The notes below the pieces were generated by a model. That model saw only the letters and a program-made list of their open reading frames with translations. It did not search any database and was not told the origin of the DNA. Shown piece after piece: positions 8,551 to 42,259 of a DNA stretch of 42,259 nucleotides; the first letter of the stretch is position 1, and each line of letters opens with the position of its first letter. The DNA comes from an uncultured Candidatus Saccharibacteria bacterium (lineage in GTDB: Bacteria > Patescibacteriota > Saccharimonadia > Saccharimonadales > Saccharimonadaceae). The DNA is taken from the NCBI GenBank assembly GCA_947367565.1, contig CANBEI010000005.1, positions 1-42,259 of the forward strand. The letters are read 5' to 3'. Made by a program: the position numbers and the translations under genes.

Positions 8551-8613
8551 AGCCTAGTCTCTTTCCTTTTCCTCCATTAGGCACTACCTGGGTAGAGGCA
8601 GCGGAGGGGGAAA
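8551..8613 (-). repeat. 3' flank shared by VR1 and VR3
   Basis: The last VR1 bases and the following stretch (CTCTACCCAGGTAGTGCCTA, then a purine-rich GGAGGAAAAGGAAAGAGACT run) recur at 42195-42259 with only a few substitutions and one indel. The shared block covers the last codons (..CLYPGSA, stop) and about 25 bases beyond. It contains the small palindrome CTACC-CA-GGTAG. It may be the recognition region downstream of the VR (IMH-like) or a sign that whole cassettes were duplicated. Confidence 0.75.
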
Positions 8614-8810
8614 GCATGCCAACGATTGCCGTAGCTTGACGGATCGACGTACGTAGGGTACGTGAGTAGGTGATAAGCACCCGTAGATGAGCTATCTGTA
8701 CGCGACCAGTTGTAGCCGAAGCCGATGAACCGCATAGCACCCTCATAGTCAGTACCAACATTAACCCACCCGCTACGGACAAAAGCCAATGGTAAATTCC
8801 AACTTGTATA
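8577..8810 (-). pseudogene. C-terminal remnant of a DGR target (carries VR1)
   Basis: The open frame runs from just after a TGA (8813-8811) to TAA at 8577. It reads YTSWNLPLAFVRSG, the variable loop, then WSRT..SS, VDPS and AFPLRCLYPGSA. This is the C-terminal part of a C-type-lectin-like FISUMP domain. Only seven codons precede the repeat, there is no ATG, and no ribosome binding site is evident before the TTG at 8789. A normal target carries 100 or more residues upstream, so this is a fragment, or it is expressed in a way I cannot see. Confidence 0.55.
8599..8789 (-). repeat. DGR variable repeat VR1
   Basis: 191 nt aligned with the template repeat at 41035-41219. Identical edges: TTGGCTTTTGTCCGTAGCGG at the 5' side, TTTCCCCCTCCGCTG at the 3' side. 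It is two codons longer than the TR. Asn codons of the TR become Ser, Tyr, Gly, Asp and others here (for example TR AAC AAC AAC AAT against AGC TAC GGC AAT). Several third-position and non-adenine changes also exist, so VR1 is not a fresh copy of this TR. Confidence 0.85.
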
Positions 8811-8880
8811 TCACGTACAAGTTCAGTCTCATTCTAACGGGGGTAACTTAATGTTTTATAATCCTTAATCAAGCAGACTA

Positions 8881-9061
8881 TATATTACTTTAGCTATACT
8901 TTCTGGAATATAAAGGCGTTGAACCGGATTTTAGGCTTCAGTTTTAGCAAAAAGTCAGCGCAAACTTGTTCTGCGGAACTTTTTGCAATCCGTAGGAAAA
9001 ACTGAAGCCTAAAATCAGACGTGAAGCGCCCCATTCCAGAAAGTATAGCTAGAGTAATGTA
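8881..9061. repeat. large nested palindrome between parB and VR1
   Basis: About 29-bp outer arms (8881-8909 with 9033-9061; core AGCTATACTTTCTGGAAT) enclose a second pair (8927-8946 with 8997-9018; core GATTTTAGGCTTCAG) and an inner pair GCAAAAAGT / ACTTTTTGC. It fills most of the 300-base gap between parB and VR1. It may act as the parB 3' end. It shares only GGAAT and GAAGCGC with the other palindromic elements of the window. Confidence 0.75.
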
Positions 9062-9096
9062 GCCGGGTTAACTGGAAGATTATGAAACACCAAGCC

Positions 9097-14761: not shown

Positions 14762-14867
14762 TAATGCGTAACTAAAATGAGAGCAGTTCGGAATTTGAGG
14801 AGATGAAGCGCGTCTTACGACGAGCAAATCTCCGAAAAACCGAAATGCTCCATTTTAGCAAGCATTA
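14762..14867. repeat. palindromic element B (downstream of rplU)
   Basis: 106 bp. Imperfect arms (TAATGC..CTAAAATG..TTCGG against the complement at 14840-14867) surround a core GGAGATGAAGCGCG...ACGACGAGC that is nearly the same as in element D at 27191. The right arm overlaps the rplU stop codon at 14865. Probably a mobile-repeat relic now serving as an mRNA 3' end. Confidence 0.8.
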
Positions 14868-17309: not shown

Positions 17310-19835
17310 CTACAATAAGCTATTTACATATTCATTAAACTCATCGTCTGTCATATCGGTCAAATCCGTACTTTCGTACGCCTCATCAGCCGCCTCTTGA
17401 TTATTTTGGTCAACTTCCTGCTGCTCGCTGCTCACCGTCTCGTCTGCCACTTGATTATCGACCACAGCTTGTTCAGCCCCACCATCCGACGTTGCCGTAC
17501 TTTCCTCAGTCTGATCATACGTCCCTGTTGTATTCCCAGTAATCTCGTCCTGCGAGACCTGATTCTCTGGCGTTTGATTCGACGGAGTCTCTATCTCGCC
17601 CGGAGTTTTATTGTCAATATTCTCAGTCTGATCTACTGGATTAGTCTGACCGCCATCTTCGACCACCTTTTTCTCATTATCCTCATCCTTCGGTTTAGGA
17701 GTTTCCGGTGGAGTTTCGTCATCCGGAGGAGTATCATCCGGTGGAGTTTCGTCATCCGGAGGAGTATCATCCGGTGGAGTTTCGTCATCCGGAGGAGTAT
17801 CCGGCTCATCATCCGGCACTTCTTCAATCACCGTCACCGTGACAATCGGCTCTCGCTTCGTCGGCGTATCAACTTTCAAATTCGGCTGGAACCCACAGTT
17901 TAAGTTAAAATCACCCGATTCCTGTGTTCCATCAGCAAACGTCATGACAATTTGTACTTGTTTTGCATTATTTCGCTTCTTCGTATCCAACCTAAGCTTG
18001 ACATTCTCAATCGCATCACCCAACGCCGCATCTTCTTTTGCCATATAGAACGTCCGCTCGGTATCATTTTCAAGATAAAACTCAAAATTCGTATTCTCAT
18101 TGTATAGCGCCAACCCACTCGCCGCGAGCAACTTCTTCTGCAAATCACCACCGTTTTCACCCAACAGTGCATCCATCACTCCCTGCGCACGCTGCTCGAC
18201 ATTCTGATTCTCAATCACGCTCGCATCAATTCCCGCCGCTTCCATAATCTGCGGATAATTCGCCACAAACGCTGCCATCGTCTGCGGTTGATCGCGGACG
18301 ATGCTCAGGAGCTCCTGAGCCGTAGTAGCATTACGCACTTCACCGAGGTCAAATACGAAATCTTTACTCTCACCGAAGTGATTCGTGCCTTTACCGGCAT
18401 TCGCCGTTTCGTACTCCGTCAGATTTCCCATCAACCCATTCGGCAATACTTGCGTCCCTTCACGCTCCGCCATCCCAGCATACATCTGTTCACCTACGTT
18501 AAGTAAGTCCACCCCCTCGTAGTCAATATCCCCACTATTCTTCAAATCTTCCGGCCCGATTCCCAACTCTTGCATTACTGCCTCAGCCTCAGCCTGCGCC
18601 GCCTGAATCTCCGCTTGCATCTCAGCCTGACCCGTTACTTCGTCACCACCGGCATTCTCTTCCGCCGCATACACCACATTTGCCGCCGGCCCATTACTTC
18701 CACCCGCACTTCGCGACGCAAAACCAGCCAACATCAAAGTCGACATCAATACAATCCCGACCTGCGCCACCGTTCGCGCCACGACTCGCTTAAACCCTTT
18801 TCGCGCTTTCAGCCTCTCATGCAATTTCTGCACCAGCCCCTCGCGCTTCTCAGCGGTCTGTTCTTGCTCAGCCAATTCCGCTTTTTCTTCCTCCGACATC
18901 CAGCGCCCCGGGTTCGCCTCAGCTTCCGCTGCCATCGCCGCCATATTATCCCAATATTCCTGACTGCGCTGTGCTTCCGCCTCTTCTTGTACTGCTGCTT
19001 CCGTTTCATCGGCTAGATTTTGCACACCCTGGTCGACCTGCTCAAACAATTCCTGATCGCGACTTTCCAACTCCGCTTTCTTCTTCTCCAACATTTCACG
19101 TAACGCAGCGTCCTGCGCACCCAAGCTCGCTATCACCGCATCATACGCCGCGCTCGTCATCTTCTCCGCCGTATTCACATCCGCTTCGCCAGTAAGCTCC
19201 TCAGCTTCCCCACTCACTGGCGACGTCTCATCCTGCTCATACAACACCGCCTCTTGCTGCGCTTCCGACATTTCCTCAAAAACCCGCTCCCTACGCATAC
19301 TCATTGACCCATATTGCGCCATTGCCTGCTCTAGCTGTTTCTTCTGGTATTCATGCATCTCCGGGTCAAGATACCGCTCCGTCTTCATCTCTTCAATCTC
19401 ACCCGCCAGCTTCTTCATGTCCTGCGTCATCTCACGTGCCGCCACCTCTGGTGACCGCCCCGCCAAGATATTTTTCATTTCCGCCTTGCGCTTCTTTTCA
19501 AACGCTTCACGCGCCAACTTTCGCTGCTCTTTTTCGTAAGCGTTAATATCAAAATCTTCTTCCCCATTTTTCTTTGCCTCGAGCGCCCTTTGGATTGTCT
19601 CTTCCGAGTACTTCTGTTGATTGCGCCCATCTGTCGTCTCGCGCAGCATTTTCTCTAACTGCGCCAGCTCCTCATCGCTAGCCCGTTCTGCCTTCTTTCC
19701 TTGACGCTCATAATACTTATCAACCGCATTTACGGTCTCTTTGCCAATCTCCTGCTCAACCTTCTTACGCTCCGCGCTCTTCTCACGCTCACCGCCCCCG
19801 CTCGGTGCCCTTTCACCCTTATTCCGTCTCGCCAT
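17310..19835 (-). CDS. large coiled-coil membrane protein with Pro/Asp-rich exported tail
   Basis: 841 residues. Residues 1-340 are almost all charged helix (coiled coil). A basic patch and one membrane segment (about 350-375, TVAQVGIVLMSTLMLAGFA) follow. Then comes an exported domain (about 390-650), a linker of 11-residue repeats (DDETPPDDTPP), and an acidic Gln/Asn-rich end. The segment before the helix (RLKARKGFKRVVARTVAQ) resembles one in the 526-residue neighbour, so they may be related. The ATG is 2 nt after the stop of the DUF5663-like gene, showing coupling. Family not recognised; a link between cytoplasm and cell surface is inferred from topology only. Confidence 0.75.
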   Translation of the reverse strand: MARRNKGERAPSGGGEREKSAERKKVEQEIGKETVNAVDKYYERQGKKAERASDEELAQLEKMLRETTDGRNQQKYSEETIQRALEAKKNGEEDFDINAYEKEQRKLAREAFEKKRKAEMKNILAGRSPEVAAREMTQDMKKLAGEIEEMKTERYLDPEMHEYQKKQLEQAMAQYGSMSMRRERVFEEMSEAQQEAVLYEQDETSPVSGEAEELTGEADVNTAEKMTSAAYDAVIASLGAQDAALREMLEKKKAELESRDQELFEQVDQGVQNLADETEAAVQEEAEAQRSQEYWDNMAAMAAEAEANPGRWMSEEEKAELAEQEQTAEKREGLVQKLHERLKARKGFKRVVARTVAQVGIVLMSTLMLAGFASRSAGGSNGPAANVVYAAEENAGGDEVTGQAEMQAEIQAAQAEAEAVMQELGIGPEDLKNSGDIDYEGVDLLNVGEQMYAGMAEREGTQVLPNGLMGNLTEYETANAGKGTNHFGESKDFVFDLGEVRNATTAQELLSIVRDQPQTMAAFVANYPQIMEAAGIDASVIENQNVEQRAQGVMDALLGENGGDLQKKLLAASGLALYNENTNFEFYLENDTERTFYMAKEDAALGDAIENVKLRLDTKKRNNAKQVQIVMTFADGTQESGDFNLNCGFQPNLKVDTPTKREPIVTVTVIEEVPDDEPDTPPDDETPPDDTPPDDETPPDDTPPDDETPPETPKPKDEDNEKKVVEDGGQTNPVDQTENIDNKTPGEIETPSNQTPENQVSQDEITGNTTGTYDQTEESTATSDGGAEQAVVDNQVADETVSSEQQEVDQNNQEAADEAYESTDLTDMTDDEFNEYVNSLL
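17707..17802. repeat. 33-bp tandem repeat, about 3 copies
   Basis: Three nearly perfect 33-bp units (17707-17739, 17740-17772, 17773 to about 17802) encode the DDETPPDDTPP linker of the 841-residue protein. Such repeats change copy number easily, so the linker length may vary between strains. Confidence 0.85.
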
Positions 19836-22955: not shown

Positions 22956-23279
22956 TGTTTTCTGCATTTTATTCGCAACACAAACGCTTACCCCGCCACC
23001 ACCATAGTACAGTTACCATTGGCTTTTGTCCGTAGCGGAAACTTAAACTTGTACGATGGTGAGATGTTCGCCGGCGAGGGGGGCTACCCTTGGTCGCGTA
23101 CGGCGCTCTCCTCGTCCCGAGCCTACGGCTTATGGATGACGTTTACGGACGTCAATCCGTCAGACTACTATTTCCGTTGGTATAGTTTCCCCCTCCGCTG
23201 CCGTACCAAAAAATATTCCCGGACACAGACCCAGGAATATCATCAAAACGCAGAAATCCTTACACCTTCTCTAAACTAA
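22956..23279 (+). pseudogene. C-terminal remnant of a DGR target (carries VR2)
   Basis: Open from 22956 (after TAA at 22953) without ATG; the repeat starts at codon TTG 23019. It reads TTIVQLPLAFVRSG, a variable loop, WSRTALSSS, VNPSDYY and SFPLRC, then non-homologous residues to TAA at 23279, overlapping the 3' end of ileS. Only about 20 codons precede the repeat, so the body of a lectin-like target is missing. Regarded as a target fragment or a stored VR. Confidence 0.5.
23019..23200 (+). repeat. DGR variable repeat VR2
   Basis: 182 nt, one codon shorter than the TR, with the same 20-nt 5' edge and 15-nt 3' edge. TR Asn codons read Tyr, Asp, Leu, Gly, Trp, Phe and others here (for example AAC AAC AAC AAT against GAC TAC TAT TTC). 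Some non-adenine changes occur (CTG to TTA, GGC to CCT). It is followed by a small hairpin (TATTCC..GGAATA, about 23213-23238). VR1 and VR2 share six extra bases upstream (TTACCA) that the TR lacks. Confidence 0.85.
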
Positions 23280-27190: not shown

Positions 27191-27304
27191 ACTAGAAGGC
27201 TTGTTAGAATGGAGTTAGTTCGGAATTCGAGGAGACGAAGCGCGTCTCCTCGACGAGCGAGACTCCGAGAAACCGAAATAACCCATTATAACAAGCCTTC
27301 TACT
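27191..27304. repeat. palindromic element D (downstream of the thioredoxin-like gene)
   Basis: 114 bp. Arms TAGAAGGCTTGTTA..AATGG..TTCGG match the complement of 27274-27304. Core GGAGACGAAGCGCGTC...CGACGAGCG closely matches element B. The right arm overlaps the stop codon (27300-27302) of the minus-strand gene, as element B does with rplU. Confidence 0.85.
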
Positions 27305-34360: not shown

Positions 34361-34446
34361 TTGTATTACCTCTCCTCTACCTCTAGTATACGCCTATGTT
34401 GTGTTTTTTACAAGCCCAACCCCACCCCTTATGCTTATCTGAATGC

Positions 34447-34452
34447 TATAAT
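34447..34452 (+). promoter_or_regulatory. -10 box giving a leaderless priA mRNA
   Basis: TGCTATAAT (extended -10), 6 nt before the ATG at 34459. Confidence 0.55.
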
Positions 34453-34458
34453 ACTATT

Positions 34459-36597
34459 ATGTTTTACGAGGTCATGCCCACAGAAGTCTATCGCGCCGAC
34501 GGCGGTGCCCTCACCTACTCTTACGACCCAAAATCACAAAACGGCCAAAATCTCCTCCCCGGGCACATTGTCCTCATCCCCGTTGGCCGCCGCCAAATCC
34601 CCGGCATCATCATGAAACGCGTCCCCAGCGTTAATTTCCCTACCAAACCCATTTCTCGCCTTATCCACCCCACCCCAATCCCTCAGCACCTCTTAAAATC
34701 TATCACTTGGCTCTCCAAATACTACCTCGCTCCCGCCCCCACTGTCGCCAATCTCCTCCTCCCCGCCAGCCTTATCTCCAAAAAACTCCTCAAACAAACG
34801 ATTCCTGATGGCGAATTGCCATTGAATAATAACGTGACAAGTGGCATCAGCGCTACAACTCCTTCTCAAGACCATCTGCAAAGCAAAAACTTGAGAGCTA
34901 ATAGTGAAAATGAGGCATATTGTTCGTTCTCGGGAATCTCCAGCGACAACGGGAGCTGGACGAAGCGCAGGCTCGCCTATAACGACAGGCCGAGCCAAGC
35001 GTGTCCCGAAACGAATAATAGCCTTATTTCACTTAATAGCGCTCAAAAACATGCCCTCAGAGCCCTCCAGGAGGCCCCAGGAACCACTCGTCTCCTCCGA
35101 GGCATTACTGGTAGCGGTAAAACCAATATCTACCTTAAAATGGCCTCTGATGCGCTCCTAGAGCAAAAGTCCACTATTTTACTCGTTCCAGAAATCGCCT
35201 TAACCAGCCAAATCGTCAAAATCTTCACCCAAACCTTCGGAAACCGCGTTGTCCTCATTCACTCGAACCAAACCCTAGCCGAACGCCGGAAGACCTGGCT
35301 ACGCATCCTAGAAGCCTCTGAGCCCCTCATTATCATCGGCCCCCGCTCCGCCCTCCTTTCCCCAGTTCATAACCTTGGCCTTATTATCATTGACGAAGCT
35401 CACGAAGGCGCCTACTATCAGGAAAACACCCCTCGCTATTCCGCCCTCCGGCTCGCTAGTTTTATGGCGAGTTCCCTCAAAATACCTTGTATCCAAGGCA
35501 CCGCCACCCCCAACATCGTCGATTTTCACCTCTCTAAGACCCACAATTCCCTGATTGAGCTTACCGAAAAAGCCAAATCCACCGCCATCACCCCCCAATC
35601 TACCATCGTTGACCTCAAGGATCGCGCCAATTTTCTCAAAAATCGCTATTTTTCCAACCAACTCTTGACCGCCATCGAGAAAAATATCCAGGCTAAACAT
35701 CAAACTCTTATTTTTCATAATCGACGCGGCTCTTCACCCCTGACAATCTGTGAAGAATGTGGCTGGCAAGCTCTCTGTCCAACTTGCTATCTTCCCATGA
35801 CGCTCCATACTGACGGTTTCCTCCTTGCCTGTCACATCTGCGGCCATGAAGAAAAAGTCCCTACTAGCTGCCCCAGTTGCGGCCACCCCGGCATTATTCA
35901 CAAAGGTTTCGGCACCAAACTCCTCGAATCCGAACTCACCCGCCTCTTCCCCAAAGCCAAAATCGCTCGTTTTGATGGCGACAATAACAAAAAATCCAGC
36001 CTCGCCGAACTCTATAATGACGTTAAAACCGGCAAAATCGACATCCTTATTGGTACTCAAACCCTCGCCCGCGGGCTCGATCTCCCCCTCCTTGCTACCG
36101 TCGGCGTCGTCCAAGCCGACGCTGGCCTTTCTCTCCCCGATTTCGCCGCCGAGGAGCGAACTTTTGAGCTTCTTACCCAAGTCATCGGCCGCGTCGGTCG
36201 GGGACATCTCGACCGTGCCGAAGTCGTTATCCAAACTTATCAACCAGACCACCCTGTCATCCAGACCGCCATACAAGCTGATTTCTCCAATTTCGCAAAA
36301 TATCTCCTCGAAAAACGCCGCACCGGCAAACTTCCCCCCTATACTTACCTCGCCCGCCTCTCTATTACTTACAAAACCGAAAAAACCACCTTGAAATACA
36401 TCAACCAGGCCTTCCAGACTCTCAGCCAAAACCCCAAACTCGCCGTTTCTCCTCCTACTCCCGCCTTCCACGAACGCACCGCCAGTGGCTTTACCTGGCA
36501 ATTGATCATCAAATCCACCTCCCGCGAAACTTTACGCCAAGCCCTCGCCCCTTTCAGTAAATACCGCATCGAACTCGACCCTCCGTCTCTCCTTTGA
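34459..36597 (+). CDS. priA: primosomal protein N' (replication restart helicase PriA)
   Basis: 712 residues from ATG 34459; the upstream in-frame extension overlaps the promoter. N-terminal 3'-DNA-binding domain (YEVMPTEVYRADGG, IVLIPVGRRQIPGII), Walker A GITGSGKTNIY (about 214), IIDEAHEGAYY (about 311), zinc cysteines CEECGWQALCPTC and CHICG..CPSCG (about 430-480), helicase motif VIGRVGRGHLDRAEV. Restarts stalled forks. Residues about 144-195 come from palindromic element E, an in-frame insertion in the linker between the DNA-binding and helicase domains. Confidence 0.93.
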   Translation: MFYEVMPTEVYRADGGALTYSYDPKSQNGQNLLPGHIVLIPVGRRQIPGIIMKRVPSVNFPTKPISRLIHPTPIPQHLLKSITWLSKYYLAPAPTVANLLLPASLISKKLLKQTIPDGELPLNNNVTSGISATTPSQDHLQSKNLRANSENEAYCSFSGISSDNGSWTKRRLAYNDRPSQACPETNNSLISLNSAQKHALRALQEAPGTTRLLRGITGSGKTNIYLKMASDALLEQKSTILLVPEIALTSQIVKIFTQTFGNRVVLIHSNQTLAERRKTWLRILEASEPLIIIGPRSALLSPVHNLGLIIIDEAHEGAYYQENTPRYSALRLASFMASSLKIPCIQGTATPNIVDFHLSKTHNSLIELTEKAKSTAITPQSTIVDLKDRANFLKNRYFSNQLLTAIEKNIQAKHQTLIFHNRRGSSPLTICEECGWQALCPTCYLPMTLHTDGFLLACHICGHEEKVPTSCPSCGHPGIIHKGFGTKLLESELTRLFPKAKIARFDGDNNKKSSLAELYNDVKTGKIDILIGTQTLARGLDLPLLATVGVVQADAGLSLPDFAAEERTFELLTQVIGRVGRGHLDRAEVVIQTYQPDHPVIQTAIQADFSNFAKYLLEKRRTGKLPPYTYLARLSITYKTEKTTLKYINQAFQTLSQNPKLAVSPPTPAFHERTASGFTWQLIIKSTSRETLRQALAPFSKYRIELDPPSLL
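34891..35045. repeat. palindromic element E, in frame inside priA
   Basis: 155 bp. Long imperfect arms (TTGAG.GCTA.TAGTGAAA.., TTCGTT.TCGGGA) pair with 35004-35045. Core GGACGAAGCGC...AACGACAGG. Translated in the priA frame it reads FSGISSDNGSWTKRRLAY then NDRPSQACP, the same pattern and frame as element F in fmt. The surrounding PriA domains are intact. Confidence 0.88.
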
Positions 36598-36636: not shown

Positions 36637-37257
36637 ATGACAACAAAAGACACCTCTAGCGCCAACCCGACTCCAATGAATCGCGAAATTATTACTACCC
36701 CTGATCCGCGTTTACGTCAAAAATCGACTAAGGTTCACCAAATCACCGACGAAACTCACGAAATCATCGGCGATATGGTTCACCTCTCTCTTGACTGGGA
36801 AAAAGCTCACCCCTATGAGCTTTCCGCCGCCATGGCTGCCCCCCAAATGGGCGTCAACCAACGCATTATCATCATTCGCGACGATCTCGACGACAAAGAA
36901 AATAATTCTTTTACGGCGCTAATCAATCCTGAAGTCATCAAAACCGAAGGTAAAGTCATCAAAGAACAAGAAGGCTGTCTCTCTGTTCCTGAGATTTACG
37001 GTATGGTCGGCCGACCCAAAAAAGTCAAAATTAAAGCCCTGCTTGAAGACGGCCACGAAGTTCGCATCAAAGCCGAAGGTTACCTTGCCCGCACTCTCAT
37101 GCACGAAATCGACCACTTGAACGGTATCCTCTTCATTGACCATATCAAAGACGACGAGACCGCCTTTTACCGTCTCGACGAAAACGGCGACCTAAGGCCC
37201 GTCGACTACAACGCCGAAATCAAAAATAATACCAACTTATTCCCCGAAGAGGATTAG
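36637..37257 (+). CDS. def: peptide deformylase
   Basis: 206 residues. The three PDF motifs are present: SAAMAAPQMGV (GxGxAAxQ variant), EGCLSVP, and LMHEIDHLNGILF (HExDH). A metal enzyme that removes the formyl group from new proteins. It is followed one base later by fmt, which adds the formyl group: a functional pair. Ends ..NNTNLFPEED. Confidence 0.95.
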   Translation: MTTKDTSSANPTPMNREIITTPDPRLRQKSTKVHQITDETHEIIGDMVHLSLDWEKAHPYELSAAMAAPQMGVNQRIIIIRDDLDDKENNSFTALINPEVIKTEGKVIKEQEGCLSVPEIYGMVGRPKKVKIKALLEDGHEVRIKAEGYLARTLMHEIDHLNGILFIDHIKDDETAFYRLDENGDLRPVDYNAEIKNNTNLFPEED

Positions 37258-37258
37258 C

Positions 37259-38215
37259 GTGAGTAATGCGAACGCCGACTGTCAACCATTTTCAGGAATC
37301 TCCGCGACCAACGGGGAGCGGACGAAGCGACCAGAGCCCCGTAACGACGGGCGCGAAGGAGCGTGTCCTAAAAAGGCTGACAGTCGGCGTTCAACATTAC
37401 CCAAGATACTTTTCTTCGGTAACGGCCCATTAGCCGACTACACCCTAAAAGTTCTCGAAAAGCATTGTGACATCCTTTTCCATGCCCGCACTCGCGAAGA
37501 CCTCACAACTGCCGCCGAGTTCAAGCGCCAAAACCCCGACGCCCACGGCGTCCTCGCCTCTTTTGGCGTTCTTATCAAATCCGACTTTCTCGAGCTTTTT
37601 GAGCCCGAAGGCATCCTCAATCTTCACCCCTCGAAACTCCCAGAATACCGCGGCGCCTCCCCAATCGAATCCGCCATTTTGCATGGCGACAAAGACTTCA
37701 GCTACTCTATCATGAAGCTAGTGAAAGCCATGGACGCTGGCCCAGTATACCATCAGGACACACTTAAAAATCTCCCAATCGACAAAAACGCAATCTATGA
37801 AGCCCTTGCTACCGCTGGAGCTGAGTGGCTCGTCGCCAATCTCGACAGCCTACCGCAGCCTATTGAACAAGATGACACGAAAGCGACTTTTACCACCAAA
37901 TTTGACAAATCCATGTCTTTTCTTCATCCCGCCGACGCTCCCGCCGAGACTATTCTTCGTCAAATCGTCGCCTATCAAGGTTTTCCGAAACCCAAATATG
38001 ACTTTTATGGCAAAACTTGTATCATCCTGAAAGCCCATGTTCTCCGCGTCACCGACATTCTTTGTGAAGCCGCCGGCATGACCCCCAAAGATTCCCCGCT
38101 CATGCTCAAATGCCAAGACCGCAACTTCGTCGTCGTCGATGAGCTTCAGCCCGAAGGCAAAAAACCCATGAACGCCCGCTCTTTCGTCAACGGCTACAGC
38201 AAAAACCCAAAATAG
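37259..38215 (+). CDS. fmt: methionyl-tRNA formyltransferase with a repeat-derived N-terminus
   Basis: 318 residues from GTG 37259 (AGAGGA upstream). The catalytic domain begins at about residue 48 (LPKILFFGNGPLADYTL). It includes ASFGVLIKSDFLE, LNLHPSKLPEYRGASPIESA (Asn and His of the active site) and MDAGPVYHQ (Asp), then a short C-terminal domain. Transfers formyl from 10-formyl-THF to Met-tRNAi. Residues about 2-47 are encoded by palindromic element F and are not part of the family. The element thus lies between the start codon and the true domain start. Confidence 0.88.
   Translation: MSNANADCQPFSGISATNGERTKRPEPRNDGREGACPKKADSRRSTLPKILFFGNGPLADYTLKVLEKHCDILFHARTREDLTTAAEFKRQNPDAHGVLASFGVLIKSDFLELFEPEGILNLHPSKLPEYRGASPIESAILHGDKDFSYSIMKLVKAMDAGPVYHQDTLKNLPIDKNAIYEALATAGAEWLVANLDSLPQPIEQDDTKATFTTKFDKSMSFLHPADAPAETILRQIVAYQGFPKPKYDFYGKTCIILKAHVLRVTDILCEAAGMTPKDSPLMLKCQDRNFVVVDELQPEGKKPMNARSFVNGYSKNPK
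37263..37400. repeat. palindromic element F, in frame at the start of fmt
   Basis: 138 bp (46 codons). Arms GTAATG..GAACGCCGACTGTCA pair with 37365-37400. Core GGACGAAGCGAC...GTAACGACGGGC. In the fmt frame it encodes FSGISATNGERTKRPEPR then NDGREGACP, matching element E in priA position for position. Confidence 0.88.
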
Positions 38216-41034: not shown

Positions 41035-41219
41035 TTGGCTTTTGTCCGTAGCGGCTATATTAATCTGAACAACGGTCAGGCTAGGAACGCCGGCGAGAAC
41101 GGCTACGGCTGGTCGCGTACGGCGAACTCCTCGACCAACGCCTACAACCTGAACATGAATACTACTAACGTCAATCCGTCAAACAACAACAATCGTTACA
41201 ACGGTTTCCCCCTCCGCTG
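41035..41219 (+). repeat. DGR template repeat (TR)
   Basis: 185 nt, 40 nt after the small ORF. Read in frame it gives LAFVRSGYINLNNGQARNAG then WSRTANSSTNAY, NPSNNNNRYNG and FPLR, with 17 Asn codons, the adenine-rich codons that adenine mutagenesis can turn into many residues. Its edges are identical to VR1 and VR2. The last codon is TGG where VR1 and VR2 have TGC. Its position beside the RT and its Asn richness identify it as template rather than target. Confidence 0.92.
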
Positions 41220-42194: not shown

Positions 42195-42259
42195 TAGCCT
42201 AGTCTCCTTCCTCTTTCCTCCATTAGGCACTACCTGGGTAGAGGCAGCGGAGGGGGAAA
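42195..42259 (-). repeat. DGR variable repeat VR3 (3' end, cut by the window edge)
   Basis: The minus strand enters at 42259 with TTTCCCCCTCCGCTGC and continues with the CTCTACCCAGGTAGTGCCTA block found after VR1. Only the last 15 bases of the repeat (42245-42259) are inside the window. The C-terminus of the encoded protein would be the same as VR1 (..CLYPGSA). A 12-bp hairpin (42163-42191) follows within about 55 nt. Confidence 0.8.

Follow-up and report, generated by a model that had tools for sequence, protein, structure and literature searches.

An in-frame palindrome in the priA gene of a Candidatus Saccharibacteria bacterium belongs to a dispersed family with a conserved core and copy-specific arms

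The window analyzed here, i.e. the whole stretch of 42,259 nucleotides at positions 1 to 42,259 of contig CANBEI010000005.1 (assembly GCA_947367565.1) from an uncultured Candidatus Saccharibacteria bacterium, encodes on its forward strand the replication restart helicase PriA, assigned by both Pfam and NCBIfam profile matches, and the methionyl-tRNA formyltransferase Fmt, and each of these genes harbors a palindromic element in frame. The relevant features of the window are as follows, with R1 denoting a covariance model of the element core, for which the copies in priA and fmt were combined with three from the relative G005:

34396..36597, forward strand: priA, host of the element, a 733-aa ORF (TIGR00595 priA, 474.7 bits; PriA_3primeBD, DEAD and PriA_C)
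34891..35045, forward strand: entire palindrome in priA, core plus extended arms (RNA fold z -10; arms of 39 and 38 nt, 32 matched)
34891..34929, forward strand: 5' arm of the priA element, in the variable linker; inverted complement of the 3' arm, not found in relatives
34930..35008, forward strand: core of the priA element, R1 match of 60.2 bits (this copy was itself used to build R1)
35009..35046, forward strand: 3' arm of the priA element, whose outer part is the LISLNSAQ codons, with which the helicase domain natively begins and which relatives conserve
37259..38215, forward strand: fmt (Formyl_trans_N and _C; TIGR00460 fmt)
37270..37392, forward strand: second element, at the N-terminal end of fmt and in frame with it (core 37292-37370), homologous to the priA copy
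14773..14858, forward strand: type B variant palindrome, intergenic (fold z -7.4)
27193..27302, forward strand: type B variant palindrome, intergenic (fold z -9.4)

In PriA the 3' DNA-binding domain spans residues 40-123 and the helicase region starts at residue 210, with the element lying between them, open in frame. The RNA fold of the palindrome has an energy of -77.5 kcal/mol (z = -10), equalled by none of 200 shuffles. Together with the intact reading frame and the domain positions, this bears out the original prediction of a palindrome inserted in frame in the PriA linker. The accompanying estimate of about 50 added residues is too high, because the outer part of the right arm is the native LISLNSAQ segment, which is aligned in solved PriA structures (the alignment to these begins at residue 210), and net insertions elsewhere in the family, taken against empty orthologues, measure ~90-120 nt (30-40 aa). 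Alignment of PriA from related Saccharibacteria, which had been proposed as a check, revealed linkers of varying length that lack the segment; a search of these linkers for the contrary case, in which all relatives carry the same protein segment devoid of a palindrome, did not bear it out. An AlphaFold2 model of PriA has a pLDDT of ~25 for most of residues 129-209, and thus places the insert within a segment modelled as disordered, which is as much as the model conveys.

The priA and fmt copies are read in the identical peptide phase, giving the pattern FSGISxxNGxxTKRxxxxNDRxxxACP in both. The fmt copy is probably what had earlier been called element F, an identification that is likely rather than certain. 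The fmt start codon falls inside the extended 5' arm, and as the element covers the start-codon region (within 37244-37300), a hairpin in the mRNA might affect fmt translation. At the matching position of fmt in the relative G040 (L015 1-560) there is an element with other arms and another core. The two type B palindromes have a GAAGCG motif in common with the priA and fmt elements, and further type B matches were recovered in this genome as well as in G050 and G188; the four palindromes of the window taken together have fold z values from -6.8 to -10.

The expectation that further copies would lie in genes of this genome was upheld by a search with R1, which gave 15 matches at E <= 0.1, with fmt among the host genes. 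Across the genus R1 matches at E <= 0.1 were recovered in 143 of 174 genomes, and the closest-studied pair, G125 and G140, have 28 and 19 matches respectively at E <= 1, the weakest of which may be due to chance. An order-wide R1 search at E <= 0.001 yielded matches outside the genus in two genomes of one sister genus only, and all the matches listed for a 22-base core pattern against 84,980 species are from Candidatus Saccharibacteria, mostly ruminant gut MAGs. By these sequence searches the family is nearly absent outside the genus. A plasmid search with the priA copy returned no match, and the literature covered, from which subscription journals mostly fall out, contained no report of such elements in Saccharibacteria.

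The core of the family spans 69-80 nt and comprises a hairpin around GCCCCGT-AACG-ACGGGC, placed between GAAGCGAnGA and GCGAGGAGCG, while the arms on either side of it pair over ~18-60 nt. Most copies display two characteristic irregularities, namely one extra base in the 3' arm ~8 nt from the core and one extra base in the 5' arm ~15 nt out. Identity between non-orthologous copies amounts to 87% in the core, 30% in the outer arms and 25% in the far flanks, whereas complementarity within a copy reaches 82% in the outer arms versus 49% in the far flanks. In five copies from three genomes the core is identical and the arms differ between their loci. Thus, the arms match within each copy but not between copies, which suggests that copying errors keep rewriting the adjoining host gene. 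The earlier description of the arms as imperfect under drift misses this main feature, i.e. that they are specific to each copy and co-evolve.

Placement was studied in a sample of 77 copies scoring at least 31 bits, with a host frame defined as stop-free over at least 120 codons. By this definition 69 copies lie stop-free inside long ORFs, 40 in the sense and 29 in the antisense orientation relative to the element and in several phases; at least four of the other eight are clearly intergenic (L079, L084, L105:18429 and L116), and where these eight could be judged there is no frame-broken host gene among them. Besides priA and fmt the hosts include leuS, murG, miaA, a CPBP protease, an obg-type GTPase and a pseudouridine synthase; several of the assignments were made from sequence motifs read by eye. 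The net insertion relative to empty orthologues is mostly the core plus 18-32 nt, and the core has a GC content of 69% as against 46% in the flanks. The preservation of frame suggests that the insert is translated as 30-40 extra residues, which have no evident function for the host. The leuS loop between the EIxFK and ITVFTTRPDT motifs contains differing palindromic inserts in different species and none in others; over the loci L049, L064, L070, L071, L093, L113 and L126 the inserts include the present family in both orientations and at least two other types.

The clearest comparison of a filled with an empty site comes from the second leuS site, where G125 has an element with an insert of 96 nt and G140, which is ~89% identical nearby, has none. 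The empty site reads TTACAAGAGGCCTCT/ACAGCCTCTAATGCT and the filled site CTCTTGGAAGCTGTA/AAAGCCTCTTCTG-core69-AAGAAGATGGCTTT/ACAGCTTCCAATGCT. Here the 5' flank CAAGAGGCCTCT has become TTGGAAGCTGTA, differing at 8 of 12 positions and now exactly complementary to the 3' flank TACAGCTTCCAA; the latter bears just 2 changes, both synonymous. An inverted copy of the opposite flank has thus taken the place of 12 nt beside the insert. Such a clean overwrite is seen in this one filled/empty pair only. In the other pairs (obg, L154, L156, L157 and L161) the insertions are 114-120 nt and it is harder to tell where the two arms came from, and in L154 and L161 both arms seem to have arrived together with the insert. 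The exact empty sites, at 75-89% identity, display no target duplication of constant length. Two rules were considered and rejected. Insertion only into pre-existing palindromes would demand a near-perfect 24-bp palindrome as the target at the first leuS site, which is far too rare by chance, and the real empty sites are without it. A directional rule under which the 3' flank is native and the 5' flank copied, as first drawn from priA, fmt and the two leuS sites, dissolved over 39 loci into 18 versus 21. Separately, a 1.2-kb segment (L155 1475-2828 versus L177 1735-2962) has opposite orientations in G125 and G140, one of the breakpoints coinciding with the site of the element, and in another comparison (L143 versus L165) a different short palindrome occurs in G140 near the position of a G125 element.

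Change at a given site was followed in orthologous copies, i.e. those at matching positions of host proteins with at least 58% identity, whose cores are 91% and flanks 73% identical. In 32 orthologous pairs of copies 126 arm pairs have changed on both sides and are still paired, against ~18 expected, a count that is descriptive because pairs sharing a locus are not independent; a further 88 arm changes are on one side only. At the first leuS site, for example, GAATTC/GAATTC of one species corresponds to GAGTTT/AAACTC of another, representing double changes that are synonymous on both sides. Among 82 orthologous pairs, 39 differ in the orientation of the core relative to the gene, and in the cases read (as at the second leuS site) the arms are shared. 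Some opposite orientations at one site could reflect independent insertions. Moreover, the cores at one orthologous site (L147/L152) are mosaic: the inner hairpins of the two species differ, both being of kinds that also occur elsewhere, a pattern suggestive of exchange among copies.

These observations point to what is probably a selfish, translated and non-autonomous palindromic element of ~90-120 bp, the arms of which would be extended and corrected by template switching during replication. Under this proposal the element would have spread through the genomes of one Saccharibacteria genus with copies landing in genes in either orientation, and those found would be the ones that preserve the frame and are located in loops, linkers or termini. 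Since each copy is a near-perfect inverted repeat, the polymerase could switch template within it, and such a switch might repair an arm with its partner as template, overwrite one flank with the sequence of the opposite one and thereby extend the palindrome into host codons, or invert the core in place; probably, it might also allow cores to be exchanged between copies. According to published work, a switch of template from one inverted repeat to the other homogenizes arms, inverts spacers and, in coding DNA, produces multi-base changes (PMC8604942); it also creates hairpin stems and repairs or maintains them (PMC8794818). This single process accounts for the copy-specific arms, the joint change of the arms, the reversal of cores and the overwritten flank. 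By itself it explains neither the recurrent bulges nor the arrival of the core at a new site. A bolder version, in which the arms are made from host sequence at each site and template switching also spreads the core, rewriting essential genes with no transposase, is a tentative possibility that we would rate well below the general proposal.

Most copies share the two bulges, one on each arm, which pure arm correction would tend to erase, so that the structure may also be recognized by something. The main competing view is that of a MITE or REP-like element mobilized by a transposase, for which the bulged hairpin would be the recognition structure and the evolution of the arms a side effect. 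The discreteness of the element, its conserved core with the recurrent double bulge and its presence or absence between species are all in keeping with such an origin. Against it, the termini differ in every copy, unlike those of MITEs, no constant target duplication is apparent at the exact empty sites, and the Y1 transposase (PF01797, the sole transposase family searched) occurs in 8 of 170 genomes and in neither G000 nor G005. Mobilization of the RAYT/Y1 kind was rejected, as neither this genome nor 162 of the 170 searched encode the enzyme, and mobilization by a transposase in general seems unlikely, slightly more so than the bolder version of template switching. Compensatory change alone does not separate template switching from selection for pairing, and the strong covariation would also fit a functional structured RNA or regulatory element whose pairing is maintained by selection at each site; the position of the fmt copy and of some copies at gene ends would allow a hairpin to influence translation or termination. 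Nevertheless, the copies occupy either strand of unrelated housekeeping genes, in frame and in mid-gene, with the core reversed between species, their presence is sporadic even between close species, and antisense copies covary too. With no credible Rfam match, a known RNA family was also discarded, and such a function at each site appears improbable. The remaining possibility, that the flexible linker simply acquired a usual kind of protein insertion which is palindromic by chance, would fit the variable length of the priA linker among relatives; it is contradicted by the fold z of -10, by relatives whose priA lacks the element and above all by homologous nucleotide cores in unrelated genes on both strands, which refute it as an account of the linker and leave it with a negligible likelihood.

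The element, for which template switching remains the favored account of the arms, is reminiscent of several known systems. The closest are the Rickettsia palindromic elements (RPE; Ogata et al. 2000, 2002, reviewed in PMC2229807 and PMC10969869), multi-copy stem-loop sequences of ~105-150 bp, also given as 105-146 bp, found both intergenically and in frame in conserved genes, the insert being translated in one tested case, Gmk (PMC2229807, PMC10969869). Similarly, the Saccharibacteria element is a repeat of 100-150 bp with a long stem-loop and many in-frame copies in unrelated conserved genes (priA, fmt, leuS, murG and miaA). It differs in that ~90% of the studied copies are intragenic, on both strands, and in its copy-specific arms co-evolving around a conserved core, the arm behavior being known here for the Saccharibacteria element only. 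TIGR01045 (RPE1) has no match in this genome at E <= 10, and five inserts have none in NCBIfam, which covers other RPE families as far as it includes them; membership in RPE by sequence was therefore rejected. The earlier portrayal as an RPE-like coding palindromic element in a CPR bacterium accordingly holds for dispersal and in-frame residence in other genes and fails for membership by sequence, the best reading being that it is RPE-like in kind though not by sequence. Wolbachia palindromic elements (WPE) were reportedly described by Ogata and coworkers in 2005. WPE-like inserts occur in addA, addB and priA of Wolbachia (PMC4224334), and resemble the present element as in-frame palindromes without stops, priA included, a likeness drawn from their description to elements from another phylum.

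The inverted repeats altered by template switching (PMC8604942, PMC8794818) likewise feature homogenized arms, an inverted spacer and multi-base compensatory changes, in coding DNA too, and both arm homogenization and spacer inversion are present at orthologous sites of the Saccharibacteria element. Those cases are short resident inverted repeats, whereas the latter is a dispersed family. The coding palindromes of nematomorph mitochondria (PMC6649704) and the PARCELs (PMC2996958) are also inverted repeats inside translated genes, but the former constitute no dispersed homologous family and the latter are tandem 25-residue repeats. REP/RAYT elements and MITEs share the small, dispersed, hairpin-forming and non-autonomous character; unlike REP/RAYT the present element is mainly intragenic in a genome without the Y1 transposase, and unlike a MITE it has no constant terminal inverted repeats, as is apparent from the low identity of the outer arms between copies.

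Earlier examples of protein-coding palindromes come from Rickettsia, Wolbachia and a small number of other sources. The family described here is large, with up to dozens of copies per reduced genome in ~140 species-level genomes of one genus. Since it offers sites with and without the element, copies at orthologous positions and cores turned round in place, comparing sequences can test whether the arms evolve by template switching, and likewise how extra loops in essential proteins originate. For annotation it serves as a warning that inserts of 30-40 residues in conserved proteins of these genomes represent dispersed repeat DNA rather than domains.

The window additionally contains repeats of other kinds. 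Another long intergenic palindrome with a different core is at 8880-9061 (arms of 29 nt at 93%, with an inner perfect 19 nt), and the region 8868-9075 around it folds at -96.6 kcal/mol. Dispersed repeats of ~130 nt, 72% identical, are found at 8599-8718 (reverse strand), 23069-23200 and 41088-41219, and repeats of 53 nt, 94% identical, at 8561-8613 and 42207-42259; both are probably a paralogous gene family or another repeat, and sequence resembling them flanks elements in L099 and L100. Finally, 33-nt tandem repeats are situated at 17683-17801 within an 841-codon reading frame on the minus strand.
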